From Paenibacillus sp. FSL H8-0548 (GTDB lineage Bacteria > Bacillota > Bacilli > Paenibacillales > Paenibacillaceae): a stretch of DNA of 64,000 nt. The DNA lies in NCBI RefSeq assembly GCF_038630985.1, contig NZ_CP152049.1, forward strand, positions 1,321,501 through 1,385,500, written 5' to 3'. The translations under genes and the position numbers were made by a program. Position 1 is the stretch's first letter. Each line of letters starts with the position of its first letter. Positions 8,813 through 56,564 of the stretch are shown here, one piece after another. Under the pieces are notes generated by a model. That model did no database searches, was not told the DNA's origin, and saw only the letters and a program-made list of their open reading frames with translations.

Positions 8813-9154
8813 TTTTATGAAAACGCATACATGTTATTCTTGATTTTATCATTTACGGCTGCTTTGAGGAGTTGTCTGCCATTCCAAAACGATTGGTAAA
8901 ACTTGCGGAGGCCGTAAAATCGGGGGTTTTTCGGACAAAAATGACACATTATTAAAATTGTCAGAATAGTCAAACTTTAAAATCGGCTGGAGTTTACCCT
9001 TATAAGTATGCGCTTTCATGCGATATTGAAAATGACATATATACGGGAATTCCTTTTGTCGGCTATTGTTGGAATTGTAAGCGATAGCAATTCACTTACC
9101 TGTCGCCAATCACAAAACAAAAGCAAAAATACGAAACCAGGAAGGAGTGATTCT
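8813..9154. other. Upstream region of the sugar-importer operon
   Basis: No supported gene. A frame open from 9008 merely extends the permease upstream and lacks a ribosome site. The stretch has AT-rich promoter-like sequence around 8950-8985 (TTGTCA, TAAAAT, but only 14 bases apart), so no firm promoter is called. Confidence 0.4.
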
Positions 9155-10117
9155 GTGCAGGAGGTTAAAGGTATAGCAGCGGGAAGCGCGCTTCCGGAGC
9201 CGGGTAAAATGAAGGGCAGAATGGGAAAGAGAGTTTTTCAGAACTGGGAGCTGTATCTATTTATAGCACCCGCATTTTTCTACTTTCTAATTTTCTCTTA
9301 CGTTCCCATGTACGGCATACAAATTGCATTCAAAAACTTCATACCTACAAAAGGGATTTTAGGAAGCCCTTGGGTCGGATTTGATCATTTTGTCCGATTC
9401 TTTGATTCTTACTACTTTTGGGACTTGATATGGAACACGTTGAGTATTAGCCTTTATGAATTGGCTATCGGTTTTCCGATTCCTATTATACTGGCGCTGG
9501 CCTTCAATGAGCTGAAGGGCGGTTACTTTAAGAAGATGGCTCAGACCGTCACTTATGCGCCGCATTTCATTTCTGTCGTCGTAATGGCGGGTATGATTAT
9601 TACGTTCTTGTCGCCTTCGACAGGGATTGTCACACACCTCATTCAATGGCTTGGGTTTGATGCACCTGATTTTCTGACCGATCCAAAATGGTTCAAGACG
9701 ATGTATGTATTCTCGGGTGTCTGGCAAGGAGCAGGATGGGGCACCATTATTTATTTGGCAGCGCTATCTGGCGTAGATCCAGGCTTGCACGAAGCTGCCA
9801 TTATTGACGGTGCTTCGCGTTTCCAACGCGTTCGTCATATTAACATTCCGACGATTGTCCCAACGATGACCATTCTATTGATTTTGAATATGGGAAGCCT
9901 ACTTGGGGTAGGATTTGAGAAAATACTATTGCTGCAAAACCCACTAAACATGGGATCGTCGGATGTCATTTCGACATTCGTTTATCGCTCGGGGCTTGTA
10001 GATGCCCAGTATAGCTTCTCGACGGCAATCGGCTTGTTCAATTCCGTTATTAACGCCGTTATTCTTGTTGGTGTGAATCAGATTGTACGACGGACCAATG
10101 AAAACAGCTTGTGGTAG
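9155..10117 (+). CDS. Sugar ABC transporter permease, LplB-like
   Basis: Inner-membrane permease of a CUT1-type importer, about 320 residues. GTG 9155 is chosen because GAAGGAG (9141-9147) stands 7 bases before it; upstream in-frame starts have no such site. After a short cytoplasmic head come six predicted membrane segments, beginning at LYLFIAPAFFYFLIF. The EAA loop is visible as the stretch around HEAAIIDGASRFQRV, which docks the ATPase. The family sits with a second permease (10136) and a lipoprotein (11086) and uses a shared ATPase (MsmX type) encoded elsewhere, since none is present here. Context suggests import of the glycan fragments attacked by the enzymes at 15.2-23.6 kb. Confidence 0.93.
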   Translation: MQEVKGIAAGSALPEPGKMKGRMGKRVFQNWELYLFIAPAFFYFLIFSYVPMYGIQIAFKNFIPTKGILGSPWVGFDHFVRFFDSYYFWDLIWNTLSISLYELAIGFPIPIILALAFNELKGGYFKKMAQTVTYAPHFISVVVMAGMIITFLSPSTGIVTHLIQWLGFDAPDFLTDPKWFKTMYVFSGVWQGAGWGTIIYLAALSGVDPGLHEAAIIDGASRFQRVRHINIPTIVPTMTILLILNMGSLLGVGFEKILLLQNPLNMGSSDVISTFVYRSGLVDAQYSFSTAIGLFNSVINAVILVGVNQIVRRTNENSLW

Positions 10118-10135
10118 AAGAAGGGGGTGCGACCG

Positions 10136-11044
10136 ATGACTAGTGCCGTTAAAGAGAGCGGACGGGATAAAGTATTTCTGATATGCAACTATATTTATGT
10201 GTTTTTGGCTTTTATTGTTGTAGCTTACCCTGTCATTTACATGATCAGTGCTTCTATAAGCGATCCGAAGTTGGTCGGTTCCGGAGAAATGTGGCTGTGG
10301 CCAAGAGGCATTACGTTTGAAGGTTATCAAAGAGTATTCCAGAACTCGAGCATATGGACGGGATATGGAAACACCATCCTTTATACGGTCGTAGGTACGA
10401 CGATCAATTTATTGGTTACGCTGCCTGCAGCCTACGCGCTAAGCCGCAAAGATTTTGTAGGACGCAACTTTTTTATGGGAATGTTCATGGTTACGATGTT
10501 TTTCGGCGGCGGCCTCGTGCCAAGCTATTTGCTCGTCAAGGAACTGGGAATGGTCAATACGATGTGGGCGATTGTCATCCCTTCAGCCGCATCGATCTGG
10601 AACATCATTGTAGCTCGCACGTTCTTTCAGTCTTCCATTCCAAAAGAGCTACAAGAGGCTGCACAGATTGATGGCTGCACGAATATACGGCTGTTCTTGA
10701 AAATTATTTTGCCGTTATCGATGCCGATCATTGCCGTTATGGCTTTGTTCTACGGCGTAGGGAACTGGAACAGCTACTTCTCGGCGCTCATTTATTTGAA
10801 TGACGCAGCGAAATACCCGCTGCAGCTTGTCCTGCGTCAAATTCTTGTATTGCAGGAGATGTCGGCTCAAGGCGGGGGCGCGCTGGATGCTTCTAGCGCA
10901 GCTGCTCTCAACAACAAAGCTGAAATCGCTTCACTGGTCAAATACGCCGTTATTATCGTAGCGACAGCGCCTATTATTGCGGTTTATCCTTTCTTACAGC
11001 GTTACTTTGTGCAAGGTGTCATGATTGGTTCTGTAAAGGGCTGA
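10136..11044 (+). CDS. Sugar ABC transporter permease, LplC/YtcP-like
   Basis: Second permease subunit, 302 residues. ATG 10136 follows AGAAGGGGG (10119-10127) at good distance; the GTG at 10127 lies in that site. Six membrane segments are predicted. The EAA motif reads ELQEAAQIDGCTNIRLF, and the C-terminus ends in the family signature (YFVQGVMIGSVKG). It starts 18 bases after the first permease, so the two are co-transcribed and form the heterodimeric channel. Its closest paralogue in the window is the product of 60950-61816, which belongs to a different importer. Confidence 0.93.
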   Translation: MTSAVKESGRDKVFLICNYIYVFLAFIVVAYPVIYMISASISDPKLVGSGEMWLWPRGITFEGYQRVFQNSSIWTGYGNTILYTVVGTTINLLVTLPAAYALSRKDFVGRNFFMGMFMVTMFFGGGLVPSYLLVKELGMVNTMWAIVIPSAASIWNIIVARTFFQSSIPKELQEAAQIDGCTNIRLFLKIILPLSMPIIAVMALFYGVGNWNSYFSALIYLNDAAKYPLQLVLRQILVLQEMSAQGGGALDASSAAALNNKAEIASLVKYAVIIVATAPIIAVYPFLQRYFVQGVMIGSVKG

Positions 11045-11085
11045 TCTTGCTCATAAATGATATGAAAAAGGGAGAGGGATTTTGG

Positions 11086-12696
11086 ATGAAAAAGCTTCAT
11101 AAAGCATCATCGTTGTTGCTCAGTCTTACGCTGCTTGTCTCAGTAATGGCAGCTTGCGGCTCGCCAAACGAAGACAAAACAAATGGCAGCAATGCCGGGT
11201 CCGAAACATCGACATCCAATCAAGCTGAAGGGGTCAGCAAGGAAGGTTTTCCGATCGTTAAAGAACCGATCACGCTCAAAATGATGTCACAGGACGTTGG
11301 CGTAGCGGATTGGAACAAAATGCCTGTACTACAAGAGATGGAGAAATTGACAGGCATCAAATTGCAATTCCAGAACGCACCGCTTGACAGCTTTGCAACG
11401 AAGAAAAACCTTGTCTTTGCCAGCGGCGATTTGCCGGATATGTTCTACGCTGCGGATCTTAAGCCAGCAGAGCAGGTAACTTACGGCTCGCAAGGCGTTC
11501 TTGTCCCTCTCGAAAAATATATTGATGAGGGTTATGCACCTAATATCAAAAAAATATTTGATGACCATCCCGATATCCGCAAGTCATTCACAACGCCAGA
11601 CGGTCATATTTATGCGCTGCCTACGGTCGATCTAGCAGCGGTTTGGTACCGTGGTCCGATGTGGTACAACGGTAAATTTTTGAAAACGCTTGGGGCATCA
11701 GAGCCAAAAACGACAGAAGAACTATATACCTATCTGAAGCGCGTTAAGGACGAAGATGCGAATGGAAATGGGAAAAAGGATGAAATTCCGCTCACTTCCG
11801 TCAAACTGAATGATTTGCGCATGTACTTCCTTGGCTTCTGGGGCATTTACGATGAGGTCGTTTACGCGGATAAAGATGGCAAAGTGCATTACACACCGCA
11901 AGAAGAAGGATACAAAGGATATTTGACCTTCCTAAACCGTCTATGGAAAGAAGATCTGCTTGACCATGAGACATTCTCGCAAACAGACGAGCAGAAGAAA
12001 GCGAAAGGCAAAAACAATCAAGTTGCTGTGTTCAATGACTATTTCCCTTACTTTACGCTAGGCGGCGAGCCAAGCGAAGACAATCCATTGATGACGCCTG
12101 TGAAAAGTGAAATCGCTGACTCGCCGGTTTACGGCAAGCACCCTGGTATTTCGGCAAACGGTACATTCGCAATCACAAGCAGCAATCCCGCACCAGAGGC
12201 AACGATGCGTTGGGTAGATTACCTGTACAGCTATGAAGGTGCTACGTTATTCGGCCAAGGCCCGGAAAACCTGCTGTGGACATATAAGGACAAAGAAAAA
12301 CACGAGAAAGAATGGCTTCCGGTTCCAGGCGGCGGCGACCGTGAAGAATACAAAGGCACGATTACGCCAAACTACGGCATTCTTACGCCGGGCATGAATT
12401 CAAGCGAGCTTGCGATTGGACTTCGGAGCGACTTTGATTTATGGATCGATGAGCAAAATGCAGAGAAGCTGGTGCCAATCGCCAAAGCGCCATTCCCTAA
12501 CGTTTACTTGACGAATGATGAGCAAACCGAAGCTTCTACTTTGTTGTCCGATCTGAACACGTATGTTCAACAGATGGAAGCGAAGTTTGTAACAGGCCAG
12601 GAGTCGCTCTCCAATTGGGACAAGTATATCGAACAAATTAAAAAAATGGGCGGCGATCGTATCGCCGAGCTTTATCAAAGCGCATATGACAGATAA
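11086..12696 (+). CDS. Extracellular solute-binding lipoprotein, LplA-like
   Basis: Binding protein of the importer, 536 residues. ATG 11086 follows GGAGAGGGA. A signal peptide ends in the lipobox VMAAC, so Cys is acylated and the mature protein stays on the outer face of the membrane. A Ser/Thr/Asn-rich linker follows, then a long type-1 solute-binding fold typical of LplA proteins (500-550 residues). Features include SGDLPDMFYAAD early in the mature domain and several surface aromatic residues. It is separated by 41 bases from the permease gene and ends at a strong bidirectional terminator. Substrate is not readable from sequence; the neighbouring GH29 and GH18 genes suggest a fucosylated or GlcNAc-containing oligosaccharide. 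Confidence 0.92.
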   Translation: MKKLHKASSLLLSLTLLVSVMAACGSPNEDKTNGSNAGSETSTSNQAEGVSKEGFPIVKEPITLKMMSQDVGVADWNKMPVLQEMEKLTGIKLQFQNAPLDSFATKKNLVFASGDLPDMFYAADLKPAEQVTYGSQGVLVPLEKYIDEGYAPNIKKIFDDHPDIRKSFTTPDGHIYALPTVDLAAVWYRGPMWYNGKFLKTLGASEPKTTEELYTYLKRVKDEDANGNGKKDEIPLTSVKLNDLRMYFLGFWGIYDEVVYADKDGKVHYTPQEEGYKGYLTFLNRLWKEDLLDHETFSQTDEQKKAKGKNNQVAVFNDYFPYFTLGGEPSEDNPLMTPVKSEIADSPVYGKHPGISANGTFAITSSNPAPEATMRWVDYLYSYEGATLFGQGPENLLWTYKDKEKHEKEWLPVPGGGDREEYKGTITPNYGILTPGMNSSELAIGLRSDFDLWIDEQNAEKLVPIAKAPFPNVYLTNDEQTEASTLLSDLNTYVQQMEAKFVTGQESLSNWDKYIEQIKKMGGDRIAELYQSAYDR

Positions 12697-12744: not shown

Positions 12745-12780
12745 ACCCGGTCATGCGAAATCATGACCGGGTGTTGTTTT
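12745..12780. terminator. Bidirectional terminator between importer operon and AraC sensor
   Basis: An 11-bp perfect stem ACCCGGTCATG/CATGACCGGGT (12745-12772) with a 6-base loop, followed by GTTGTTTT on the plus strand. It serves the convergent genes on both sides. Confidence 0.9.
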
Positions 12781-12781
12781 A

Positions 12782-15082
12782 TTATTCGTCATCCAGATCG
12801 GATGCCGTATCGACTTTTCCGTTCTCTCCGAACAACTTGCGGAATTGGCCAGGCGTATGCCCGGTTTCCTTCTTGAACTTACGGATAAAGTTAGGCGTAT
12901 CCAAATAACCGACTTGAATAATGATGTCTTTAAGCGGAGCATTCGTTGTTTTTAAATGATGCATAACCTCTTCCAGTCTTTTTTGCCAAATATATTGGAC
13001 GAAGTTGATGCCTGTCTTTTCCTTAAACGACCGGCTGACATGAGAAGGTGAAATAGTGAACTCGAAGGCGACCGTTTCAAGACTGAGCGTATGGTTCATA
13101 TAGTGATCATCGATATAGGATACGATCCGATCGATTTGCGACTGCTCTTCCTTCTGGTTGTTGCGCTCCACTTGATTGCAGATCCGGGAGGCTAGATTCA
13201 AAAAGCCGCTTTCCAGCTCATCTAGCGTATTGCTGTAAATCATATTCGGAGCTATTTCTTGTATCAAATTATGAATGCCAAGCTCGGATGCGGTTTTCAG
13301 CATCGTATTCAAAATATCGAAGCATATGCAGCGTTTGAGTAATGCGGACAGATCGGATGATTGCAAACTCCTGATGGACGGGCTGATGATCTGTTCTGCC
13401 ACATCATAGCTTCCTTGCTTCAGACTCTGAGCGAGCTTCAACAGCGAGTTGTTTGGGATCCAGAACGTATGATCCGGCGTGAAATGCAGCTTCTCGAAAT
13501 AAGTGACGGTGCCATGACCGCTGGATGCCCGCAGTTCAAAGGCAGAGCAAGCTTCGATAAAAGATTGATTTAGCTGGTTTGGACTAGAATAGCAGGTTCC
13601 AACGCCAATTGTAGGAGTGGCATCAAACGTTTCCAGCAAACAGCTGAGCACCGCTTCGACAATGCGGCGGATAGGAGTGAATTCCTCTTCCGCGTCATTC
13701 GTATTGAAGCTGATAATAAGCGCGAGTTGATCGAGCTGCGGGAGCTCTACGCCGTAGGCGTGCGCTTCCAATTCCGGGAACTCGATTTGGGCAAGCAGTT
13801 CGATTATTTCTTGTCGTTCATGCATCTCTTCGTGATTATCGCTCATTTCGTCCCAACCTATCACCATAACAAAGTGATGCGTGCGGTCAAAATGAAGATC
13901 GAATGCCTCTTGCAGCTCTGGCGTAAGACTTTGCGCATTCCCGTACTTGAGCAGCATAGACAGAAAGTGATTGCGGGCGTATGGCTCTTGAAGGTCTACA
14001 CGCGAGCTGTATTCCTGCAGCGCTGTCCGGATATGATCAAGCTCGTTGCCGGTGAGGGCAGATTCATTTGCTTGATTTTTCGGTTTGGTTTTGGAATTGG
14101 CAAACTCCAGAAGCGTAGAGATCGGTTGGTATTGCATTCTGGCGAGCACGAGAGCAATGGCTGCTCCAACAAGAACAACGATGCAAAACAGCATGACGAT
14201 GAAGCTGCGAACATGCACGACACTGCTAAAAAACTGTGAGCTCGGCATAACGGTGACATACGTCCAGCCGTTGTTTTCCGAAGTTACGGATACGATCGAG
14301 TGCGGCTTGCCATTTAATATTTTATCGTGAATGCCGGGCGTGAGACCGAAAAGGGACTTCGCATCCGTAATCGATAAGGCCTCGCCCTGTCGATTGTCTA
14401 CTAGAATTTGGCCATTGTTGTCTAAAATATAAGTTAATCCTTGATAGTTTCCTAGAATCGAATCGATTAAGCTCGTAAGCTCGGATTCCTTGATCAGATA
14501 CATGATCGTTCCGTGCGGAGTAGGGCTGTACGGCGTAATGGGAACAAGATAGGCCAGCATCGAGTCCTGCAGGGTAGAGTTGCGAATAACAGTATCGGCA
14601 GGGCGCATCGTTGGAAATTTAGTAATGTTCAAGTCTTGGAAAACGGTTTCTTTGTTCCAGTTGTGGAAGCTGAAGCTGCTTGTGAATACGTCAAGACTGG
14701 ACAGACCCTGCGAAGAGTAAATATTTCCATCCTTGTGAAAATACAAGAACATTTCGCTGATAATTGAGCTTGTCGCTTTGTATTGATCGAGCGCTTGAAT
14801 AGCTTCTCCGCTGAAATAAGAATCGTGAACCCGAAACGGAGTCAGTCGCTTGTCATAGGAGACGCGGGATGCAATTTCGTTCAGTTCCTTCATTCGCCCG
14901 TCAATAATGACTTTGGTTTGCGTTAATTGGCTAAGGTGGGATTGTTCAATTTCGGAACGCAGATTTGTAACTGCGCTTTGATAGATGAATATGGTCATCA
15001 GCACCAATGGAATAAGCAAAATGAACAAGTAGGACCAGATATATTTTAAAAACAATTTGGATTTAAAGTAGTTCCGTTTCAC
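12782..15082 (-). CDS. Membrane-bound AraC-family transcriptional regulator
   Basis: A 766-residue one-component sensor-regulator. GTG 15082 (minus strand) is preceded by AGGGGG. A first membrane helix (about residues 13-33) and a second (about 290-312) flank an extracellular domain of 250 residues, probably Cache-like. A cytoplasmic linker follows, and the last 100 residues are a double helix-turn-helix AraC DNA-binding domain (HTLSLETVAFEFTISPSHVSRSF and the second helix near DIIIQVGYLDTPNFIRKFKKETG). Such proteins in Paenibacillus lie next to Lpl-type importers and switch them on upon sensing an extracellular ligand. It is transcribed away from the GH29 operon start, with a 132-bp shared upstream region, and convergent with the importer operon. 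Confidence 0.9.
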   Translation of the reverse strand: MKRNYFKSKLFLKYIWSYLFILLIPLVLMTIFIYQSAVTNLRSEIEQSHLSQLTQTKVIIDGRMKELNEIASRVSYDKRLTPFRVHDSYFSGEAIQALDQYKATSSIISEMFLYFHKDGNIYSSQGLSSLDVFTSSFSFHNWNKETVFQDLNITKFPTMRPADTVIRNSTLQDSMLAYLVPITPYSPTPHGTIMYLIKESELTSLIDSILGNYQGLTYILDNNGQILVDNRQGEALSITDAKSLFGLTPGIHDKILNGKPHSIVSVTSENNGWTYVTVMPSSQFFSSVVHVRSFIVMLFCIVVLVGAAIALVLARMQYQPISTLLEFANSKTKPKNQANESALTGNELDHIRTALQEYSSRVDLQEPYARNHFLSMLLKYGNAQSLTPELQEAFDLHFDRTHHFVMVIGWDEMSDNHEEMHERQEIIELLAQIEFPELEAHAYGVELPQLDQLALIISFNTNDAEEEFTPIRRIVEAVLSCLLETFDATPTIGVGTCYSSPNQLNQSFIEACSAFELRASSGHGTVTYFEKLHFTPDHTFWIPNNSLLKLAQSLKQGSYDVAEQIISPSIRSLQSSDLSALLKRCICFDILNTMLKTASELGIHNLIQEIAPNMIYSNTLDELESGFLNLASRICNQVERNNQKEEQSQIDRIVSYIDDHYMNHTLSLETVAFEFTISPSHVSRSFKEKTGINFVQYIWQKRLEEVMHHLKTTNAPLKDIIIQVGYLDTPNFIRKFKKETGHTPGQFRKLFGENGKVDTASDLDDE

Positions 15083-15214: not shown

Positions 15215-16600
15215 ATGAGCGAGACGAAAATCGTCGAAGAACAAGAAGAAGTGGTTGAACAGGGCGTTCACAACTACAGCGGTGAAGAGCAATGGGTAAA
15301 GCCCGAGGACCCGCTTCTGCTTGAACGCCTTGAATGGTTCAAGGATCAGAAGCTTGGCCTTATGATGCACTGGGGACCGTATTCTCAGCTTGGCATCGTA
15401 GAATCATGGGCGCTCAGCGACACGGATGAAGAATGGTCGCGCAATGAGATCGATTGGGATGTAGACGCAGAGGAATTGAAAAGGCAGTATTTTGGACTAA
15501 ATAAAACGTTTAATCCACTGCGCTTTCAGCCTGAGCTATGGGCAGACCTAGCTGCGGAAAACGGCTTTAAGTATTTGAATTTTACGACGAAGCATCATGA
15601 TGGCTTCTGCATGTGGGATACCCATACGACTGACTACCGCATCACAGGTCCAGATTGCCCCTTCCATACGCACAAGTATGCCGATATTTGCAAGCAGCTG
15701 TTTGATGCTTTCCGCGCGAGGGGATTAGCGATCTCGGCTTACTTCTCGAAGGCCGATTGGCACACGCCTTACTACTGGGCACCGGGTATGGAGCGCGGCA
15801 ACGTGACGTCGCGAGGGCCTTCCTATGACCCGAAGGAATACCCTCACCTTTGGGAGCAATTCGTGCAGTTCACTCACAAGCAAATTATGGAGCTGATGAC
15901 TCGCTATGGGCGAATCGATATGCTTTGGCTCGACGCAGGCTGGGTCAATGACTATCGCGACCAAAACATCAGACTGGGTGAAGTGGTTGACAAGGCGCGT
16001 GAATATCAGCCTTGGCTCCTTTCGGCGGACCGTACCGTCGGTGGACCGTACGAAAATTTAATTACACCGGAGCAGACACTGCCTGATCGTCCGCTGAATG
16101 TACCGTGGGAAAGCTGTATTACGATGGGCTACGCGTTCTCTTACCGCTATGAAGATCAATATAAATCCGTTCGCCAGCTGATTCATCTGCTCATTGAAAT
16201 TGTAGCGAAAGGCGGCAATTTGGCTCTAAACGTCGCTCCACAGCCTGATGGAAGACTGTCTCCAACCGCCATTTCCAGGATTAAGGGAATGGGTGCCTGG
16301 TTGAAGGTTTACGGCGAAGGAATCTATGGAACGCGTAGTTGTGAGCCGTATTCCGCTCACAACTGCCAGTTTACGAGAAAAGACGATATAGTCTATGCGT
16401 TCTACTTATACAAGGATGAGCAAGAGAGTGTGCAAGAAGAACTGCATATTCCAATCCCGCAAGCCTTCAGCCAAATCGATCTCGTTGGCGGCCAAGACAA
16501 TCTGCAATACCGTAGAACGGACAACGGAATAATAGTGCTTTTACCAGAAAATGAACGGCTAGAACAAGCGCCAATCGCGCATGTCTTCCGGATTAAATAA
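15215..16600 (+). CDS. Alpha-L-fucosidase, GH29 (first copy)
   Basis: Retaining exo-glycosidase that removes alpha-linked L-fucose, 461 residues. ATG 15215 follows CTGGAGG. The catalytic barrel begins at WFKDQKLGLMMHWGPYSQLG, a classic GH29 opening. TTKHHDGFCMWDT is the conserved His-His substrate pocket. The nucleophile is Asp240 in MLWLDAGW. No signal peptide is present; the N-terminus is acidic, so it should act in the cytoplasm on imported sugars. First gene of a tight run of six (gaps of 6-48 bases) ending at 23600. Its sequence is clearly different from the second GH29, so the pair may split linkage types. Confidence 0.93.
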   Translation: MSETKIVEEQEEVVEQGVHNYSGEEQWVKPEDPLLLERLEWFKDQKLGLMMHWGPYSQLGIVESWALSDTDEEWSRNEIDWDVDAEELKRQYFGLNKTFNPLRFQPELWADLAAENGFKYLNFTTKHHDGFCMWDTHTTDYRITGPDCPFHTHKYADICKQLFDAFRARGLAISAYFSKADWHTPYYWAPGMERGNVTSRGPSYDPKEYPHLWEQFVQFTHKQIMELMTRYGRIDMLWLDAGWVNDYRDQNIRLGEVVDKAREYQPWLLSADRTVGGPYENLITPEQTLPDRPLNVPWESCITMGYAFSYRYEDQYKSVRQLIHLLIEIVAKGGNLALNVAPQPDGRLSPTAISRIKGMGAWLKVYGEGIYGTRSCEPYSAHNCQFTRKDDIVYAFYLYKDEQESVQEELHIPIPQAFSQIDLVGGQDNLQYRRTDNGIIVLLPENERLEQAPIAHVFRIK

Positions 16601-16620
16601 CGAAAGCGGGGAAATGAGTT

Positions 16621-17907
16621 ATGCAAGAGTGGTTTAAAGAGGCAAAGCTCGGTATTTTTATACACTATGGCATTTATGCGGTTGATGGAGTTGCGGAGTC
16701 ATGGTCCTTCTATAACGGAAGAATGCCCTATGATGCTTACATGAAACAGTTAGACGGCTTTACGGCTGCGAACTTCGATGCGGACAAATGGGCCGATTTG
16801 ATTGAACAATCAGGGGCGAAGTACGCAGTTCTTACGACTAAGCACCATGACGGAGTTGCCTTGTGGGATACGCAGTACAGCGACTTAAACGTTGTGAAGA
16901 AGACACCGGTGAAACGGGATTTAATTAAAGAATATGCGGAGGCCGTTACGAGCAGAGGGATTCGGCTTGGCATGTACTATTCGCTGATTGATTGGTCGCA
17001 TCCCGATTATCCGTCTGTTTTTGAAGGTGGCAGGGTACCGGAGGATCTGAGTACGGTGAATAAGTTTTCAAGTCCTGTCGATGGCATTCAGGATGAAGAG
17101 AAATGGAATAAGTTTTTGCAGTTTAACAATGACCAGCTGCGGGAGATTTTGACGAACTACGGGAAGGTTGATCTGCTATGGTTCGATGGGGACTGGGAAC
17201 GCAGCGCGGAGCAGTGGAATTTGCCTGCGTTCAAGCAATACCTGCAATCGTTCAATCCGGATATTATTATCAACTCGCGTCTGCAAGGCTATGGCGACTA
17301 CAAAACGCCGGAGCAAGGCATTCCGATTACGCGGCCGGAGGGACCATGGGAGTTCTGCACGACGATCAACAGCTCTTGGGGATATGTGCCGACGGATAAC
17401 AAATACAAATCATTAAATCAGATCATCCGAATGTTCTGTGATTGCATTACCTTGGGGGGCAATATGCTGCTCGATATAGGCCCTATGGAGGACGGAACGA
17501 TCGATAAGAGACAAGAAGATATTTTGCTCGGGCTGGGCGATTGGATTCGAACGCATGAGGAAGCGGTATTCGGCACGGAAGAAGGCATTATGCCACGTTA
17601 CTATTTAGGCGGCAGCACCGTCTCGAAAGATAAAAAGACATTGTATCTCTTTGTTTATGACGATCCGAAGGAGAATTTGTGTCTGAAAGGATTATGTAAT
17701 CCGATCAAAAAAATTACGGTGCTTCACTCCGGCAAAGAGCTTACGCATGAAATTCATGGCGGCGTGCCGTGGTTCAACATTCCGGGAACGACATGGATTC
17801 ATATGACTGGGGAAGACACCCATAATCAAGTTACGGTGCTTAAGCTGGAATTTGATGAAGAACTGGATATGTACGGCGGTTCTGGAGCTGTTGTAACGCA
17901 TAACTAG
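16621..17907 (+). CDS. Alpha-L-fucosidase, GH29 (second copy)
   Basis: Second GH29 enzyme, 428 residues, starting at ATG 16621 almost directly with the barrel (EWFKEAKLGIFIHYGIYAV). TTKHHDGVALWDT marks the substrate pocket and Asp189 in LLWFDGDW is the predicted nucleophile. It lacks a signal peptide. The weak GCGGGG ribosome site and 20-base gap to the first fucosidase suggest co-translation. Compared with the first copy it has no N-terminal extension and the C-terminal beta-sandwich is short. Which fucose linkages it cleaves cannot be told from sequence. Confidence 0.92.
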   Translation: MQEWFKEAKLGIFIHYGIYAVDGVAESWSFYNGRMPYDAYMKQLDGFTAANFDADKWADLIEQSGAKYAVLTTKHHDGVALWDTQYSDLNVVKKTPVKRDLIKEYAEAVTSRGIRLGMYYSLIDWSHPDYPSVFEGGRVPEDLSTVNKFSSPVDGIQDEEKWNKFLQFNNDQLREILTNYGKVDLLWFDGDWERSAEQWNLPAFKQYLQSFNPDIIINSRLQGYGDYKTPEQGIPITRPEGPWEFCTTINSSWGYVPTDNKYKSLNQIIRMFCDCITLGGNMLLDIGPMEDGTIDKRQEDILLGLGDWIRTHEEAVFGTEEGIMPRYYLGGSTVSKDKKTLYLFVYDDPKENLCLKGLCNPIKKITVLHSGKELTHEIHGGVPWFNIPGTTWIHMTGEDTHNQVTVLKLEFDEELDMYGGSGAVVTHN

Positions 17908-17940
17908 CAAGGAGGCATGCTCTCCAAGGAGGAAGAAACG

Positions 17941-18819
17941 ATGAAAATTGGATTAAGCTCATACAGTTTATTAAACGCGATTAAATCCGGAGAGCTGAGC
18001 ATTCTTGATGCCATCCGCTGGATTGCGGATAACGGCGGGGAGCATATGGAGATTGTTCCTTATGGCTACACGCTAGTAGACAACCCGGAGCTGGCGGATG
18101 CCGTTCGGGAGACAGCTAAGGAAGCTGGGATCGCTTTATCTAACTACTCGATGCCGGCTAATTTTGTGCAAGAAACGGAAGAATTGTTCAACGAGGAAGT
18201 TGCGCGAGTCAAGCTGCATGTTGATCTTGTACACCGGCTTGGCATGAACCATATGAGGCATGACGTGACCGCTTTTACCCTTCCGGAAGAAAAGATGACG
18301 ATCAAATGGTTCGAGGATCATCTGCAGCTGATGGTGAAGGGCAGCCAGCTCATAGCGGATTATGCCTCACAGTACGGCATAACGACAACGATTGAAAATC
18401 ACGGCTTTAGCGTACAGTCGAGCGACCGCGTACAGCGTGTTCTTCACGAGGTAGACCGTCCGAATTTCAAGACGACGCTGGATATCGGAAACTTCATGTG
18501 CGTGGATGAGAATTCGATCATCGGCGTTAAGAAGAACCTGCCTTATGCTTCGCTCATCCATTTCAAAGATTTTTATTTCCGTCCGTACGATCAGCCTCCG
18601 GGTGGCGGCGACTGGTTTTTGACGTCGAATGGGAACTATTTGCGCGGTGCGATTGTTGGACACGGTGACATTGAAATCCGCAAAATCGTCAAGCTCATTA
18701 AGGAGTCGGGTTATGACGGGTACATCACGATTGAGTTTGAAGGCATGGAAGAATGCAAGGCGGCATCCCGCATCGCAATGGACAACCTGCGCCGCTTCTG
18801 GAATGAATGCCAACGATAA
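17941..18819 (+). CDS. Sugar phosphate isomerase/epimerase, AP-endonuclease-2-like TIM barrel
   Basis: A 292-residue protein starting at ATG 17941 (CCAAGGAGG 5-13 bases before). It belongs to the xylose-isomerase-like TIM-barrel superfamily: metal ligands are suggested by ENHGF, TLDIGNF, HFKDF and the late TIEFEG. Members isomerise or epimerise sugars, inositols or keto-acids using a divalent metal. Cytoplasmic. In this operon it would handle a monosaccharide released by the hydrolases, or a modified sugar, but substrate cannot be assigned. It sits between the fucosidase pair and the CBM9-like gene. Confidence 0.85.
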   Translation: MKIGLSSYSLLNAIKSGELSILDAIRWIADNGGEHMEIVPYGYTLVDNPELADAVRETAKEAGIALSNYSMPANFVQETEELFNEEVARVKLHVDLVHRLGMNHMRHDVTAFTLPEEKMTIKWFEDHLQLMVKGSQLIADYASQYGITTTIENHGFSVQSSDRVQRVLHEVDRPNFKTTLDIGNFMCVDENSIIGVKKNLPYASLIHFKDFYFRPYDQPPGGGDWFLTSNGNYLRGAIVGHGDIEIRKIVKLIKESGYDGYITIEFEGMEECKAASRIAMDNLRRFWNECQR

Positions 18820-18867
18820 GCGAGCTTCATTGATAAATATAAATTTAGATGACCCGGAGGAGATCAC

Positions 18868-19893
18868 ATGAATGTAAGCGGAGTACCGGAGCCTAATATC
18901 GAATATGCTCCCAAGCATTATATATGCAGACGCGCGGCAGGGGAGCTCGTTCTCGATGGCCGTGTCGATAAGCCTTTCTGGGCTGCGGCGAACTGGACGA
19001 ATGATTTTGTCGATATCGAAGGCGACCTGAAACCAAAGCCATCTAAGCAGACTCGGGTAAAAATGCTGTGGGACGATGATTATTTTTATTTTGCGGCGGA
19101 ATTAATGGAGGATCAGATTTGGGCGACGTTGACGGAGCGGGATTCGGTCATTTTTTATGATAATGATTTTGAAATTTTCATCGATCCCGACGGAGATACC
19201 CATAACTATTACGAATTTGAAATTAACGCCTTGAACACCGTTTGGGATTTGCTGCTTGTTAAGCCTTACCGCGACGGAGGTCCTCCGGTTAACGGCTGGG
19301 ATATTAGCGGACTTCAGACGGCGGTGCATATTGACGGAGAGTTGAACAAGCCGGGTGCGTTGAATCGAAAGTGGAGCATCGAGGTGGCGATGCCTTGGAA
19401 AAGCTTGCGCGAGTGCGCGGCTGAAAGCAGGCCGCCAGCGAAGGGCGAGTTTTGGAGAGTCAATTTCTCTCGCGTTGAATGGCGCGCCGAAGTGCAGGAT
19501 GGCGAGTTCCGCAAAGTCATTAATCCGGATACGGGGAAGTCTTACCCCGAGGATAACTGGGTATGGTCGCCGATGGGGCTTATTAATATGCATTATCCTG
19601 AGCTTTGGGGTTATGTCGTGTTTGAGGAAGGAGACGCAGCGGATTCTTTCGAGCTGCCGCCGGACGAGCGTATCAAGTGGGAGCTGCGCAAGCTTTATTA
19701 TCGTGAACGCAATTACTTCGCAAGTCGTGGGGCGTTTACGAAAGAAGCGAGCCTGTTAATGAACGACAATGAAAATTGGAGCATTTCGCCAACAATTGAA
19801 ACGACCCGCTCCTTATTTCAAATTTCAGCGCCGTCAACGGATGGAAAGGCTGTCTACTGTATCAGAGAAGACGGCAAGCTATGGAAGGAGTGA
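18868..19893 (+). CDS. Carbohydrate-binding family 9-like protein
   Basis: 341 residues, ATG 18868 after CCGGAGGAG. The pattern LDGRVDKPFWAAANW, then YFYFAAELMEDQIWAT, NDFEIFIDPDG and YYEFEINALNTVWD is that of CBM9/DOMON-like beta-sandwich domains that bind sugar ends. The domain spans about residues 25-250; the C-terminal 90 residues are unassigned and end in a possible second small fold. There is no signal peptide, unusual for a carbohydrate-binding module, and it fits the idea that the whole operon works inside the cell. It could present or position glycan substrates for the neighbouring enzymes (inference). Confidence 0.8.
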   Translation: MNVSGVPEPNIEYAPKHYICRRAAGELVLDGRVDKPFWAAANWTNDFVDIEGDLKPKPSKQTRVKMLWDDDYFYFAAELMEDQIWATLTERDSVIFYDNDFEIFIDPDGDTHNYYEFEINALNTVWDLLLVKPYRDGGPPVNGWDISGLQTAVHIDGELNKPGALNRKWSIEVAMPWKSLRECAAESRPPAKGEFWRVNFSRVEWRAEVQDGEFRKVINPDTGKSYPEDNWVWSPMGLINMHYPELWGYVVFEEGDAADSFELPPDERIKWELRKLYYRERNYFASRGAFTKEASLLMNDNENWSISPTIETTRSLFQISAPSTDGKAVYCIREDGKLWKE

Positions 19894-19899
19894 AATCGA

Positions 19900-22524
19900 A
19901 TGACCTTGCAAACCTCCGTATTTTCTTTAGATGATAGAGCAATGGAGCTCATTGATCGTAAATTCCGCGAGAAGCAGCTGGTTGCTCAGGCTAGAGCGCA
20001 TGAGCTGTTCGATATCTTTCAGCAGGGGCTGACTGAGGAAGAGACTTGGGCGCTCAAATATTTATTCGCTTATATGCCAGTGAACGACATGGCCGATTAT
20101 GACGGAGACTTATTTTTGAGCCATGTGCGCCATACCTTGGAAATTCGGGGTCAAGTGCCTTGGGGAAGACGTGTTCCCGATCACCTGTTTTTGCATTTTG
20201 TCCTGCCATACCGTGTAAATACGGAGGATATCGAGGACTCCCGCGGCATTCTGTATAGTGAACTAGCTGCCAGGACCGCGCATTTGTCTATGGCAGAAGC
20301 GATTTTGGAGACGAACTACTGGTGCCATGAGAAGGCCAACTACATTGGCAGCGACTTGCGAACGATCTCGCCACTGACGATGATTCGCAATGCGCGGGGA
20401 CGCTGCGGCGAGGAGTCAACGCTTGCAGTTGCAGCGCTTCGCAGCATTGGCATCCCAGCCCGCCAAGTGTATACGCCGCGCTGGGCACATTGTGATGATA
20501 ACCACGCATGGGTGGAAGCGTGGGCTGACGGCAAGTGGCATTACATCGGCGCTTGCGAACCGGAAGCTCGCCTTGACCAAGGCTGGTTCAGTCCGCCTGC
20601 ACGGCGCGCGATGCTGATCAACACGCGGGTTTTTGCGAATTATCGAGGACCCGAGGACATTACGCTTGCCGCCGAGTGGTTCACAGAAATCAATTTGCTG
20701 GAAGGTTATGCGCCTACGCGGAGCATTGCCATTGTGGTGAAGGATGAGCAAGGACAACCGGTTAGCGGGGCCGATGTTTATTTTGAGCTGTATAATATGG
20801 CTGAATTTTATCCGATTGCAGCACTCAAGACAAATGTGCTTGGCGAGGCATCGTTTAAGACGGGCTTCGGAGATCTGTTGATCCGTGCTGTTAAGGATGG
20901 CAGCTATGGCGAAGAGAAGATTACTGTCGCTGACGGCGAGCGCTTCGAGGTTATTTTGAATCAGTCGCAGCAGCCAGATGGTATAAGAGACTTTGACATG
21001 GTTCCTCCGCCGGAACGTAACGGTGAATCTTCAGATCCAGTGTCCGAGGAATGTTTAATGCGGCACAATAATCGAATTGAAGAGGGAACGAAGATTCGAA
21101 CCAGCTATGAAGATACATTTCTTGGCGAAGCGCAAGCGACGGAGCTTGCGGTGGCTTTCGGTCTTCCGCAGGAGCGGGTGTGGGATGTATTGCGCAAGGC
21201 GCGCGGAAATAGCCGCGAGATAGCCGCCTTCCTGCAAGAGAACTCTTCCGAATATGGAGAGTGGCCACTGAGGCTGCTGGAGAGCATGAAGGAGAAGGAT
21301 TTCATTGATACTCTCCGCCCAGCACTTATCGATCATCTCGTAGGTTCCATGTCACAACGCGGAGAGCTTGAGGAAGATACGTTCGTTTCGTATATCCTTT
21401 GTCCGCGCGTATTGCATGAAATGATCGTGCCCTATAAGCATTTTTTTCAAAATGCGTTTACCGAAGAGGAGGCGGCAACGTTCCGCCAAGATCCTTCGGT
21501 GCTTGTTCGCATACTGGATGGGCAGTGGGGCAAATGGGAGGATCTTCCCAACTTAATGGGCAAAGGAAACCCAGTAGGCACCTTTAAAATGAAAAAAGGA
21601 GATCCGCTTTCCGTCGATATTTTGTTCGTGGCGCTTTGCCGCAGCTTGGGCATTCCGGCGCGGCTGCATCCGAGCGAGCAGAAGCCGCAATATATGGCGA
21701 ATGGCAGCTGGATGGATGCGTTATTCACGCATGGAACGATGCTGCAAAAGGAGAAGGCGGAGAGCGGTACGCTGCAGCTCCTTCGGGATAGTGCAGCGTT
21801 GGCAGACTCACCTGCTGCCTCGTATTCGGGCAGTTTTACGTTTGCACGGTTGGAAAACGGCGTGTATAAAACGTTGTTCTACCCCTACGGGAAATCGGAT
21901 GTGTACGATGAACCGTTCGAGGTGGAACAAGGTGCTTATCGTATGACATCAGGTGTCCGTCTGAAGGATGGCACGGTACGAGTGCGCTTTTCTTATTTCA
22001 CGGTGCGCGCAGGGGAACAAACGGGAATTTCGCTTACATTCCGTGAGGCGCAGCAAGATATTCCTGTGCTTGGGTCGATGAATCGGAGCAATACAGTCGC
22101 CTATCTTGACGGAACGAGCGTGGCACTCGGAGATCTGATCGGGATGAACGGAGCGGTAGTTGCCTGGATAGAACCGGAGCGAGAGCCGTCCAAGCATTTG
22201 ATTCGAGAAATTAGCGAGTTGGCCGAACCGTTTGCAGAGCTGGGTGCGCCAATCGTTCTCATCGTGGGCGATTCGGAGTGGACCGCGTCGTTTGATCCTT
22301 CGCGATATTCGAAGCTCCCTTCTGGCACCGTATTTGTCCGGGATTCGACCTATGCTTCGTTACCAGGCTTTATTGCGGAGCCTCCGACGAGTGAAGCGGG
22401 CTTCCCGCATCTCTTCGTGCTGGACAACCAAGACCAGATTCGCTATACAGCATCAGGCTACAAGATTGGAACCGGGCAGGAAGCGTTGCAGCTTCTAACA
22501 GGCGTATGGCAGCAACCACTTTAA
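19900..22524 (+). CDS. Transglutaminase-fold protein, possible peptide/glycan amidase
   Basis: A large cytoplasmic protein of 874 residues; ATG 19900 follows GGAAGGAG and starts 6 bases after the previous stop. The N-terminal 160 residues are helical. The transglutaminase core is clear: GRCGEES with Cys169, IGIPARQVYTPRW, and DNHAWVEAW with His202. The following WHYIGACEPE segment has Gly217 where the usual catalytic Asp would stand, with Glu220 and Glu222 close by. A beta-sandwich follows (PVSGADVYFELY). Around 21600-21700 a second, weaker core-like stretch (ALCRSLGIPARLHPSE) lacks the Cys. The C-terminal 150 residues may be a thioredoxin-like fold. The same superfamily contains peptide:N-glycanase, and the GRCGE/HxW/CE layout is reminiscent of it, but the family also includes proteases and cross-linkers. 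Context is glycan breakdown. Confidence 0.8.
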   Translation: MTLQTSVFSLDDRAMELIDRKFREKQLVAQARAHELFDIFQQGLTEEETWALKYLFAYMPVNDMADYDGDLFLSHVRHTLEIRGQVPWGRRVPDHLFLHFVLPYRVNTEDIEDSRGILYSELAARTAHLSMAEAILETNYWCHEKANYIGSDLRTISPLTMIRNARGRCGEESTLAVAALRSIGIPARQVYTPRWAHCDDNHAWVEAWADGKWHYIGACEPEARLDQGWFSPPARRAMLINTRVFANYRGPEDITLAAEWFTEINLLEGYAPTRSIAIVVKDEQGQPVSGADVYFELYNMAEFYPIAALKTNVLGEASFKTGFGDLLIRAVKDGSYGEEKITVADGERFEVILNQSQQPDGIRDFDMVPPPERNGESSDPVSEECLMRHNNRIEEGTKIRTSYEDTFLGEAQATELAVAFGLPQERVWDVLRKARGNSREIAAFLQENSSEYGEWPLRLLESMKEKDFIDTLRPALIDHLVGSMSQRGELEEDTFVSYILCPRVLHEMIVPYKHFFQNAFTEEEAATFRQDPSVLVRILDGQWGKWEDLPNLMGKGNPVGTFKMKKGDPLSVDILFVALCRSLGIPARLHPSEQKPQYMANGSWMDALFTHGTMLQKEKAESGTLQLLRDSAALADSPAASYSGSFTFARLENGVYKTLFYPYGKSDVYDEPFEVEQGAYRMTSGVRLKDGTVRVRFSYFTVRAGEQTGISLTFREAQQDIPVLGSMNRSNTVAYLDGTSVALGDLIGMNGAVVAWIEPEREPSKHLIREISELAEPFAELGAPIVLIVGDSEWTASFDPSRYSKLPSGTVFVRDSTYASLPGFIAEPPTSEAGFPHLFVLDNQDQIRYTASGYKIGTGQEALQLLTGVWQQPL

Positions 22525-22538
22525 AGGAGTGAGACAAG

Positions 22539-23600
22539 ATGACGAAGCAAAAATATATTGTGGCGGGCTACGCCGTGGATTCCAAGCTTCCTGACATGAC
22601 GCGGGAAGATTTGATGAAATTAACTCATCTGAATGTGGCATTTGGCCATGTGCGCAATGATGAGATTACACTAGAGCATTTGAAAAATATGGATGATATT
22701 TGGAAAATTAAACGTGAGTTTCCTGAGCTGACGATTCTATTATCCGTTGGAGGCTGGAGTGCCGGCGGCTTCTCCGAAGCAGCGTCTACAGAAGAGGGAA
22801 GAGCAAGCATGGCGGAATCGGCAGTTCGCATAGTGACCGACTGTCCGTTCGACGGTATCGATCTAGACTGGGAATACCCTTGCTACGGCGAAGCCGACAT
22901 TGCATCCAGTCCAGACGACAAGAAGAATTTTACGCTGCTTCTTAAGACGATGCGCGAGGCATTGGATCGTCAAGGCGCGAGCGACGAACGGCATTACCTG
23001 CTCACTATTGCTGCAGGAGCGGATCAATATTACGTAGACGGCACGGAGATGGACCAGGTTCAGCAGTACTTGGATTTTGTTCAGTTGATGACTTATGATA
23101 TGCGCGGGGGCTTTCAAATTTTGACGGGGCATCATACGAATTTGTATACAGCAACCGGTGACTTGTTCCGCATCAGCGCAGAAGCATCTGTTAGCCTATT
23201 CATCCGTGCAGGAGTGCCGAAGGAGAAGATCGTCCTTGGTGCGGCATTTTATTCACGGGTATGGCGTCATGTTCCCGATCGCAATCATGGTCTGCATCAA
23301 ATGGCGGGAAGCACCGGAGGATATGGACCGGATTTCACGACTCTTGCGGCAGAATACATCGATAAAAACGATTATGTTCGATACTGGGACGACGAAGCGA
23401 AGGCACCATATCTCTTTAACGGTTCCAGCTTCATTTCCTATGAGGATGAAGAGTCGCTGCAGCATAAATGCGAGTACGTAAAGCTTAATGAGCTGGCTGG
23501 CGTTATGTTCTGGGAATACGGCTGCGACGAGACTCATCGTCTGCTCGATGCGATCTATAAAGGGCTTCTCCTTGAGGGGAAAGACTGCTTGACCACATAG
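22539..23600 (+). CDS. GH18-family glycoside hydrolase (chitinase/ENGase-like)
   Basis: 353 residues, ATG 22539 after AAAGGAG. The GH18 signature DxxDxDxE is complete (Asp105, Asp108, Asp110 and catalytic Glu112 in FDGIDLDWEYP). SVGGWSAGGF is the upstream SxGG strand, and LMTYDMRGGF plus the late FWEYG supply substrate-side residues. GH18 enzymes cleave beta-1,4 bonds next to N-acetylglucosamine by substrate-assisted catalysis; the family includes chitinases and endo-N-acetylglucosaminidases acting on N-glycans. No signal peptide is seen, so the substrate is probably an imported oligosaccharide. The last 15 or so codons run into hairpin copy C, so the C-terminus (LEGKDCLTT) may have been supplied by that repeat. 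Confidence 0.9.
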   Translation: MTKQKYIVAGYAVDSKLPDMTREDLMKLTHLNVAFGHVRNDEITLEHLKNMDDIWKIKREFPELTILLSVGGWSAGGFSEAASTEEGRASMAESAVRIVTDCPFDGIDLDWEYPCYGEADIASSPDDKKNFTLLLKTMREALDRQGASDERHYLLTIAAGADQYYVDGTEMDQVQQYLDFVQLMTYDMRGGFQILTGHHTNLYTATGDLFRISAEASVSLFIRAGVPKEKIVLGAAFYSRVWRHVPDRNHGLHQMAGSTGGYGPDFTTLAAEYIDKNDYVRYWDDEAKAPYLFNGSSFISYEDEESLQHKCEYVKLNELAGVMFWEYGCDETHRLLDAIYKGLLLEGKDCLTT

Positions 23601-23652
23601 TGCAAAAATGAGAGACCTTTTAAGAGTTCATTGAACTTTTGGGAGGTCTCTC
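23561..23652. repeat. Recurring double-hairpin element, copy C; terminator of the glycan operon
   Basis: Perfect stem GAGAGACCT/AGGTCTCTC (23610-23652) around AGTTCA-T-TGAACT. The upstream part, CTTGAGGGGAAAGACTGCTTGACCACATAG, matches copy D across TGCTTGACCACAT and lies inside the last codons and stop of the GH18 gene. Confidence 0.75.
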
Positions 23653-23683
23653 ATTATTTTTGAAAATCAAGTTATTGCCCCAA

Positions 23684-24030: not shown

Positions 24031-25770
24031 ATGATAAAAGTTGATAACTTATCCTTCTCATTTCCGCAAAAAGAACTATATAATAACATTTCATTTACGT
24101 TAGAAGAGGCACAACATTGCGCTTTTATAGGAACAAGTGGCAGTGGGAAAAGTACGTTGATAGATATACTGATGGATCCAGAAAGATATTTGTTCGAGGG
24201 CATATTAGAAATAGACCCGACTTGCAAAATTGGGCATGTAAGTCAATTCTCACAACTAGACAAAACGAAAGAAACAACCGTTTTTGAATATATCGGGGAA
24301 AATTTTATTAAGATACAAAATGAAATAACATCTATTTGTACTGAAATGGAAACATCATCGGATATGGATTCGTTATTGGAAAAGTATCAATTAGCTTTAG
24401 ACGCATTTGATTCAATCGGTGGGGATGATTTTGAAAGCAACATTAACAAGAAACTAAATCTAGCAAACCTCATGAAGCTAAAAGATCTTAGGGTATCCGA
24501 CCTGAGTGGTGGGGAATTCAAACTTATTCAAGTGATGAAGGAAATGCTTAGTAGTCCAGACTTAATGATTATGGACGAACCAGATGTATTTTTAGACTTT
24601 GAAAACCTAAATGCGCTTAAAAATCTTATTAATTCTCACAAAGGAATACTGCTAGTTGTTACGCACAACCGATATCTATTGAATCATTGTTTCAACAAAA
24701 TTATACACCTTGAAAACACGGAGATCCAAGAGTTTGATGGGCGATATATTGATTATAACTTCTCATTACTTCAGACTAAAATTGAGTTGCAAGAACTCGC
24801 AATCGCTGATGATGAAGAAATTAAGAGAAACGAGAAAACAATCGTTAATCTTAGAATTATCGCAACTTATAATTCAGAAGCATCTAGAGGGAAAGCATTA
24901 AAAGCTAGAGTTAGGTTTCAAGAAAGATTGGAAGCACGTAGAATTAAAGCGCCATTTGTTGCTATTAAGCAACCGAATATTAGTTTTGGTATTGATAATG
25001 AAATTGAAGACACCATTGTTATAAATGTCAATAATTACAGTGTTGCCTTTGGTGAGTTGCTTTTAGACAATGTTAACTTTGAGATAAAATCTACTGATAA
25101 AGTAGCCATTATTGGTTCAAACGGTACGGGGAAAACGACTTTACTCCGAGATATCTTTAAAAATAATCATGATTCAATTGAAATAAATGCTGATGTTAAA
25201 ATGGCTTATTTATCTCAGATTCAAGGCGAAATGCTAAAGGATTCTAATACAATACTAGAAGAATTCATCGATGCCGGGTTTAAAACTTATGATGAGATTA
25301 GATCGTATATTTCAAACTATGGCTTTGAAGGAGAAATCGTTCATCAAAAGATAGGCTCTTTATCAGGTGGAGAAAAAAATATGCTTCAATTGGCTAAAGT
25401 ATCTGCCAGTAAAGCAAATGTATTGCTTCTTGATGAGCCGACAAGCCATTTAGACACCTATACACAAATAGCGCTGGAGAAAGCCATTGAAGACTACAAA
25501 GGTGCGATTCTCATGATTTCTCACGATTTCTATTCTGTTGTAAATGGTATGGATTATGTTTTAATCATTGACGATAAGACGATCAGAAAAATGAGTATGC
25601 AAAAATTTAGAGAGATGATTTATGCTAGTCATTTTGATAAAGACTATCTAGAAAATGAACAAAATAAAAAATCAGTTGAAATGAAAATAGAATTGGCTTT
25701 AAAAGATACTGATTTTGAACTTGCAAAAGTATTGGTTGATGAGCTGGAAGAGCAGATTAAGTTGCTTTAA
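24031..25770 (+). CDS. ABC-F family ATPase, probable ribosome-protection protein
   Basis: 579 residues, ATG 24031 after GAAAGGTAA. Two ATPase cassettes are fused without membrane segments, the ABC-F layout. Cassette 1: Walker A GTSGSGKST, signature LSGGE, Walker B LMIMDEPDVFLD. The second cassette has GSNGTGKTT, LSGGEKN and LLLDEPTSHLD. Between them lies a charged linker of about 90 residues that would reach into the ribosome's exit or peptidyl site. Members displace lincosamide, streptogramin A, pleuromutilin or macrolide antibiotics, or act as translation factors. Cassette 1 has an unusual DEPDVFLD instead of DEPTNHLD. The gene reads distinctly AT-rich compared with the glycan operon and is flanked by repeat copies, so recent acquisition is likely. 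Exact resistance spectrum is unknown. Confidence 0.88.
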   Translation: MIKVDNLSFSFPQKELYNNISFTLEEAQHCAFIGTSGSGKSTLIDILMDPERYLFEGILEIDPTCKIGHVSQFSQLDKTKETTVFEYIGENFIKIQNEITSICTEMETSSDMDSLLEKYQLALDAFDSIGGDDFESNINKKLNLANLMKLKDLRVSDLSGGEFKLIQVMKEMLSSPDLMIMDEPDVFLDFENLNALKNLINSHKGILLVVTHNRYLLNHCFNKIIHLENTEIQEFDGRYIDYNFSLLQTKIELQELAIADDEEIKRNEKTIVNLRIIATYNSEASRGKALKARVRFQERLEARRIKAPFVAIKQPNISFGIDNEIEDTIVINVNNYSVAFGELLLDNVNFEIKSTDKVAIIGSNGTGKTTLLRDIFKNNHDSIEINADVKMAYLSQIQGEMLKDSNTILEEFIDAGFKTYDEIRSYISNYGFEGEIVHQKIGSLSGGEKNMLQLAKVSASKANVLLLDEPTSHLDTYTQIALEKAIEDYKGAILMISHDFYSVVNGMDYVLIIDDKTIRKMSMQKFREMIYASHFDKDYLENEQNKKSVEMKIELALKDTDFELAKVLVDELEEQIKLL

Positions 25771-44606: not shown

Positions 44607-44633
44607 TTAAAATAATTAAATAAATAAATGTTT

Positions 44634-56489: not shown

Positions 56490-56495
56490 TCAAAT

Positions 56496-56525
56496 AAAAA
56501 GAGTGACATGATGTCACTCTTTTTG
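56496..56525. terminator. Terminator of the Rieske/amidohydrolase operon
   Basis: AAAAAGAGTGACA/TGTCACTCTTTTT perfect stem with a TGA loop. Confidence 0.9.
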
Positions 56526-56564
56526 CTGTTTTCTATTAATGGCCTATCTATTCAGGAGGATTGA

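Follow-up and report, generated by a model that had tools for sequence, protein, structure and literature searches.

In the usual description of bacterial N-glycan pathways, the glycan is cut from its protein outside the cell (PMC10154615). The pneumococcus (Streptococcus pneumoniae) imports N-glycan fragments with an ATP-binding cassette (ABC) transporter, NgtS-P1-P2, and its N-glycan locus has GH125, GH38 and GH29 glycoside hydrolases (PMC5215778). For the Man3GlcNAc2 core, Cutibacterium acnes has signal-less GH38, beta-mannosidase and hexosaminidase genes accompanied by transporter genes, and it has a GH29 apart from these (PMC6160142); the alf-2 cluster of Lactobacillus casei, for the core-fucosylated glyco-amino acid fucosyl-N-acetylglucosamine (GlcNAc)-Asn, combines a cytoplasmic GH29 fucosidase with a peptidase gene and an enzyme that cleaves the amide (PMC6960285). 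Here we analyse a locus that resembles all three, an operon in a stretch of 64,000 nucleotides ("the window") of Paenibacillus sp. FSL H8-0548 (NZ_CP152049.1, positions 1,321,501 to 1,385,500), which encodes predicted fucosidases, a predicted N-acetylglucosaminidase, a CBM9-like protein and a transglutaminase-fold protein (TG). The genomic context supports well a role in cytoplasmic N-glycan or N-glycopeptide catabolism, which we regard as likely. The more specific prediction, that the operon is the cytoplasmic end of N-glycopeptide catabolism and that the CBM9-TG pair hydrolyses the innermost GlcNAc-Asn bond, we hold with a little less than even confidence.

Results

The operon consists of six co-directional open reading frames (ORFs), separated by 20, 9, 48, 6 and 14 bp, in a genome of one contig (7.35 Mb):

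15215..16600, +, GH29a, predicted cytoplasmic alpha-L-fucosidase (PF01120, E 1.2e-82)
16621..17907, +, GH29b, predicted cytoplasmic alpha-L-fucosidase (PF01120, E 1.7e-92; nearest PDB entry 6gn6)
17917..18819, +, sugar isomerase/epimerase-like TIM barrel, accessory (AP_endonuc_2, PF01261, E 5.6e-27)
18868..19893, +, CBM9-like protein, the usual partner of TG (CBM9_1, PF06452, E 1.1e-9)
19900..22524, +, TG, transglutaminase-fold protein (Transglut_core, PF01841, E 1.1e-24)
22539..23600, +, GH18, predicted cytoplasmic N-acetylglucosaminidase (PF00704, E 9.5e-71)
23608..23654, +, terminator-like hairpin of 20 pairs after GH18, closing the operon

A first-pass annotation, made from the sequence alone, had described six closely spaced genes without obvious signal peptides, encoding GH29, GH18, CBM9-like and transglutaminase-fold proteins. 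The close spacing was confirmed, and the enzyme set was found as described, with a second GH29 gene and the isomerase-like gene to be added to it. Locus comparison shows that the gene order is kept across Paenibacillaceae, and the arrangement is thus not due to chance. The nearest PDB entry to the CBM9-like protein is the xylanase CBM9 1i82 (E 0.0031). Signal peptides were judged by N-terminal hydrophobicity (best stretch of 11 residues among the first 45) and a check of upstream starts, rather than by a dedicated program. The mean was 0.05-1.43 for the six enzymes; the importer proteins and the regulator, whose N-termini are hydrophobic, reached 2.5-3.2. By this measure none of the six enzymes in the window has a signal peptide. 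At most five open codons lie upstream of each of the six starts, so a hidden signal peptide does not fit either, and the absence noted earlier is borne out. Terminator-like sites in the region are as frequent as expected by chance (11 versus 11.2 expected), the hairpins at 23608-23654 and 12745-12772 being the longest.

Upstream of the enzymes lie the Lpl-type importer and the membrane AraC sensor that the first-pass annotation had placed there:

9008..10117, +, LplB-type permease (BPD_transp_1, PF00528, E 9.2e-16), conserved upstream of TG loci
10127..11044, +, LplC-type permease (BPD_transp_1, PF00528, E 8.7e-12)
11047..12696, +, solute-binding protein of the importer (PF01547, E 1.1e-11)
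12745..12772, no strand, two-way terminator-like hairpin of 11 pairs, separating the importer from the regulator gene that converges on it
12782..15082, -, membrane Cache-AraC regulator, transcribed away from the enzyme genes (HTH_18, E 1.6e-19)

The regulator's dCache_1 match (E 6.1e-6) is below the Pfam cut-off. No ATPase gene adjoins the two permease genes and the solute-binding protein gene. In a PDB comparison, the closest solved chains to the solute-binding protein were 5g5y-5g62 and AlgQ1/AlgQ2, which do not settle its ligand; the NgtS entries 5SWA and 5SWB were outside its 14 matches (E <= 0.001), a result that does not exclude the NgtS type.

The window GH18 found 6inx, deposited as an N-acetylglucosaminidase, at E 1.6e-179 in a PDB search, with 74% identity. 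The 6inx sequence and the GH18 that adjoins TG in P. barengoltzii (L069) share 100% identity over 340 residues. The NCBIfam model Endoglyc_H, with a cut-off of 300, gave the window GH18 a score of 22 bits. Kinship with 6inx and this sub-cut-off score rule out an endo-beta-N-acetylglucosaminidase, an activity that the first-pass annotation had named as one of those in the GH18 family. The clade of 6inx is known from chitin conversion (PMC8471714).

TG belongs to a large family (at least 8000 matches at E 0.001). We compared 124 loci, including the window's own short locus: 80 stretches, none above 22.8 kb, around the top-ranked homologues of a longer list, and 43 added stretches, of which 41 were picked among more divergent TG matches and 2 came from a distant family (f46). 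A TG gene was called in 121 (L046, L146 and L148, with no called TG ORF, are left out of the counts), and 8 were merged at 97% identity to give 113 distinct loci. Neighbours were counted within 9 kb on the same strand, which leaves out GH38 in L122 and GH18 and GH123 in L123, on the other strand; since the simple ORF caller loses genes to overlapping antisense frames, the counts are lower bounds.

CBM9 lies directly upstream of TG in 91 of the 113 distinct loci. GH29 was found near TG in 67, GH18 in 73, both in 59 and either in 81; 87 loci had at least one listed glycosidase, 75 an importer gene, 17 a GH125 or GH38 mannosidase and 11 the isomerase-like gene. A listed glycosidase was nearby in 55/57 loci where TG was at 60% identity or above, in 20/26 at 50-60% and in 12/30 below 50% (GH29 in 9/30, GH18 in 6/30), and in several lineages CBM9-TG stands alone, apart from GH genes. 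The constancy of CBM9 and the thinning of the glycosidases indicate that the core unit is CBM9-TG, of which GH29 and GH18 are the usual, not obligatory, company. The first-pass annotation had staked its interpretation on TG homologues not occurring mostly without GH29 or GH18; this holds for the loci taken together, and fails below 50% identity.

In a number of relatives, TG shares its operon with mannosidases. The order is GH29b-GH125-GH42-like-GH38-CBM9-TG-GH18 in L009 and L021, GH29a-GH29b-GH125-CBM9-TG-GH18 in L057, L058, L059, L061, L075 and L117, and GH3-GH38-GH29a-GH125-CBM9-TG in L041; GH125 and GH38 are both within the TG operon in L009, L013, L015, L021 and L048. Of the first 80 loci, 14 had GH125 in the fetched stretch; a rough estimate of chance, which takes no account of relatedness, gives an expectation of well under one. 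GH38 follows TG in both genomes examined of the distant family f46. Single loci had GH84 (L111), a BNR-repeat sialidase-like protein (L151) or GH35 (L124) near TG. GH123 was also seen in L006 and sulfatases in L135, and both, on the opposite strand, in L123. In L071 and L072 an asparaginase II and an M17 aminopeptidase replace all glycosidases, between the regulator and CBM9-TG. An M60 (enhancin-like) peptidase gene between importer and TG (L121:5544-7877) suggests that some TG loci handle other glycopeptides. These genes, together with those of the partner operon described below, support the earlier proposal that fucosylated, GlcNAc-containing N-glycans or glycopeptides are handled in the cytoplasm. 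We also observed an M3-family peptidase directly after GH18 in one locus (L126:12950-14647) and, in a few related loci, similarly long ORFs in the corresponding position.

The genome of the window has two GH125 genes, one of them in a second importer operon:

C1:708505-719270 (L157:5506-16271), GH125, GH42-like and GH38 genes with an importer

A sensor kinase and a response regulator of the AraC type stand in front of this operon, which lies about 0.6 Mb from that of the window. GH125 and GH38 under an importer, a trait of cytoplasmic N-glycan loci, are thus present in the same genome; the companion trait, a signal-less GH29 with a chitobiose-cleaving hexosaminidase, appears to be present in the window operon, judging by family and lack of signal peptides. 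The GH42-like enzyme belongs to clan GH-A, with no assigned family; its predicted fold resembles beta-mannosidases, making it a possible beta-mannosidase, although a comparison of sequence and fold with the GH164 and GH5_18 beta-mannosidases gave no clear family assignment. In 5 of the 80 loci (L001, L002, L003, L012 and L039) the orthologous second operon starts downstream of the TG operon, at a distance of 5 kb at most and on the same strand, with kinase, regulator and binding protein 82-96% identical. In the genome of L012 its start is 0.9 kb from GH18, and it continues through GH125, GH42-like and GH38; the other four stretches end before its GH genes. No second-operon gene was found in the 16.6 kb beyond GH18, on one side, in genome G566. 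That a single operon was cleanly split in two in the window's genome is weakened by the presence of two GH42-like copies in 5 of 6 other genomes examined; in the L013 genome the sole copy lies in the fused TG operon, split into two reading frames (L013:3039-6205).

Where CBM9-TG stands alone, in genomes G105, G460, G589 and G612, GH29a sits elsewhere, in an M29 aminopeptidase-GH3-GH38-GH125 operon (M29 assigned by Pfam in two, by near-identical starts in the other two). Genomes G470, G731 and G724 have GH125 operons with GH38 and without GH29a. Operons of the type GH3-GH38-GH125(-GH42-like) were found in L161-L164, L166 and L168, with GH29a and the M29 aminopeptidase in L161-L164; the GH125 of L159 was missed by BLAST labelling. 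The GH3 of these relatives may be a beta-xylosidase for plant-type N-glycans, a hint only because GH3 was seen in relatives and the NCBIfam matches are below their cut-offs.

Among 392 genomes of the order, compared by raw counts that ignore relatedness, TG is present at the family level in 125 (8 of 133 matches, E 6e-12 to 6e-4, were dropped as not family-level). Not one of the 125 lacks GH125, consistent with N-glycans as the substrate, and GH125 is present in 162 of the 267 genomes without TG. The GH10 xylanase, a control of similar overall frequency (285 genomes versus 287 for GH125), is present in 98/125 and 187/267, respectively. This contrast suggests that the use of TG presupposes an alpha-1,6-mannosidase. 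Paenibacillus sp. JDR-2 has a TG homologue (P0103); the text of a carbohydrate transcriptome paper on this strain (PMC4765114) contains no mention of transglutaminase, GH29, GH125, GH38 or N-glycan.

The domain limits of TG were estimated from Pfam, the PDB profile, an AlphaFold2 model (predicted local distance difference test score 89.3), fold comparison and conservation among 124 sequences. A transglutaminase core (~60-265), with Cys169 and His202, is followed by an Ig-like domain (277-353), a helical linker, a second TG-like region (~445-606) without Cys or His at the matching places, a beta domain and a C-terminal thioredoxin-like domain (~720-873; window ~22057-22518). The last, which dominates fold searches with the full-length model, has no cysteine, and has an invariant E-P-x-x-H (Glu762, Pro763, His766) at the expected place of the redox motif. 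Cys169, His202 and the surrounding motifs are invariant in 124/124 homologues. The TG profile has its top catalytic-domain match in 3isr, deposited as a putative cysteine protease.

Elsewhere in the window, an ABC-F-like ATPase with two ABC domains (24031-25770, +) directly follows the operon's terminator. A 2061-residue protein (28-6213, +), which may start upstream of the window, has eight matches to Listeria-Bacteroides (Flg_new) repeats and a weak BNR match. A Guanidine-I riboswitch was found at 44624-44721 (+; 84.3 bits). An amidohydrolase, a response regulator with an AraC helix-turn-helix and a solute-binding protein, at 55425-63310 (+), and the ORFs between them suggest another importer operon.

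Discussion

Taken together, the enzymes cover the linkages of a core-fucosylated N-glycan, which points to cytoplasmic N-glycopeptide catabolism. The Lpl-type importer would take in core-fucosylated N-glycans that have been trimmed but retain Asn or a short peptide. The GH125, GH38 and GH42-like enzymes of the second operon, the last a beta-mannosidase candidate, would strip the mannoses, as their families suggest, and the GH29 enzymes would take off fucose, the linkage being predicted from the family. GH18, like its close relative deposited as an N-acetylglucosaminidase, would split GlcNAc from GlcNAc. TG would then attack the GlcNAc-Asn amide via Cys169-His202, with the CBM9-like protein positioning the glycan, and aminopeptidases or an asparaginase, which some relatives encode next to TG or in the partner operon, would handle the peptide or Asn.

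The first-pass annotation had likened TG to peptide:N-glycanase (PNGase), which is not established. TG has the transglutaminase-superfamily core and shares with Png1/NGLY1 an active-site Cys and His and a common Cys-Glu motif. Sequence linkage is weak, residues 167-231 of 1x3w aligning on TG 151-219 at E about 0.02, and the accessory domains differ. TG has cysteines only at 142, 169, 198, 219, 385, 501 and 580; the zinc motif of Png1/NGLY1 has a paired CxxC form, and no CxxC was found in the TG sequence. The cytosolic enzyme has a zinc-binding Cys motif (PMC9102325), and its triad in yeast is Cys191, His218 and Asp235 (PMC2791212). The TG position aligned to the catalytic Asp is Gly217 in 124/124 homologues, which, with the missing CxxC, places TG outside that family. 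TG could nonetheless do the same job.

An amidase role for the pair is our best single guess, held tentatively. We chose it because the genome of the window shows no match to glycosylasparaginase or asparaginase II, and because peptidases or asparaginase in relatives serve the peptide side. PF01112 (glycosylasparaginase), to which AsnA2 of L. casei presumably belongs, had no match in this genome and matched 5 of 14 control genomes; PF06089 (asparaginase II) had none, and nor did PF09113 (PNGase F), but the latter matched no control genome either. The neighbouring-operon finding leaves the estimate unchanged, since it concerns the substrate rather than TG activity. Slightly less probable is that TG-CBM9 represents a new bacterial family of intracellular N-glycan amidases, with a Cys-His dyad, no triad Asp and a separate glycan-binding partner.

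The main rival, which we consider unlikely, keeps the N-glycopeptide pathway and makes TG a cysteine peptidase trimming the peptide around the glycosylated Asn, with another enzyme cutting GlcNAc-Asn. The top rank of 3isr agrees with it, as do the two loci with asparaginase II beside an aminopeptidase and the L. casei alf-2 precedent, where a peptidase, dispensable though, is paired with a separate glycosylasparaginase (PMC6960285). However, nothing else in the window operon is a candidate for cutting the amide bond, the genome has no PF01112 or PF06089 match, and the pairing with CBM9 suggests an enzyme that recognises glycans. The lack of an acid at the usual triad position, with the invariant Gly217, weighs against an amidase and would rather suit a pair that binds, senses or scaffolds in a glycan pathway, with the transglutaminase core retained for some other transfer of an amide or acyl group. 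The second TG-like region without Cys/His, the cysteine-free thioredoxin-like domain and the lineages with CBM9-TG alone fit such a pair, but the invariance of Cys169, His202 and their motifs would be unusual for a dead domain, and we consider it improbable. Least probable is that the operon serves another fucosylated GlcNAc glycan, such as fucosylated chito-oligosaccharides or O-glycopeptides, the mannosidases being incidental. The chitin-converting clade of GH18 (PMC8471714) and the GH123, sulfatase or M60 peptidase genes of some TG loci could be so explained; GH125 and GH38 inside the operon or next door in some relatives, the presence of GH125 in every TG genome, with no such bond for GH10, and GH29a alongside GH38-GH125 in four genomes argue otherwise.

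If the amidase reading is true, a cytoplasmic glycopeptide route with its own amidase would revise the view of glycoprotein use by Paenibacillus-type Firmicutes. TG-CBM9 would then be the bacterial equivalent of cytosolic peptide:N-glycanase, employed in feeding. The finding would hint at what a large protein family does, and a new class of enzymes for deglycosylation might follow. The window operon and its partner form a small, testable gene set.

In the open-access literature, searched at the level of listings for TG together with N-glycan loci or CBM9, we found no system with this exact gene set. Each of the known systems differs in part. In the pneumococcus, EndoD (GH85) frees the glycan before import (PMC5215778), so no amide step is needed inside the cell. 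L. casei alf-2 has a major facilitator superfamily permease and the Ntn-type glycosylasparaginase AsnA2 (PMC6960285), where the window has an ABC importer and the TG-CBM9 pair. The plant N-glycan loci of Bacteroides massiliensis link a PNGase, an alpha-mannosidase, a GH3 beta-1,2-xylosidase and a GH29 core fucosidase, and differ in their PNGase F-type enzyme and SusC/D systems (PMC9522356); GH3 also occurs in several Paenibacillus GH125 operons. C. acnes has GH20 in place of GH18 and GH5_18 in place of the GH42-like enzyme, and its authors found no amidase gene for the pathway (PMC6160142). TG-CBM9, if an amidase, would fill that step. Comparable loci are thus known in the pneumococcus, C. acnes and L. 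casei, and what is new here is the TG-CBM9 step.

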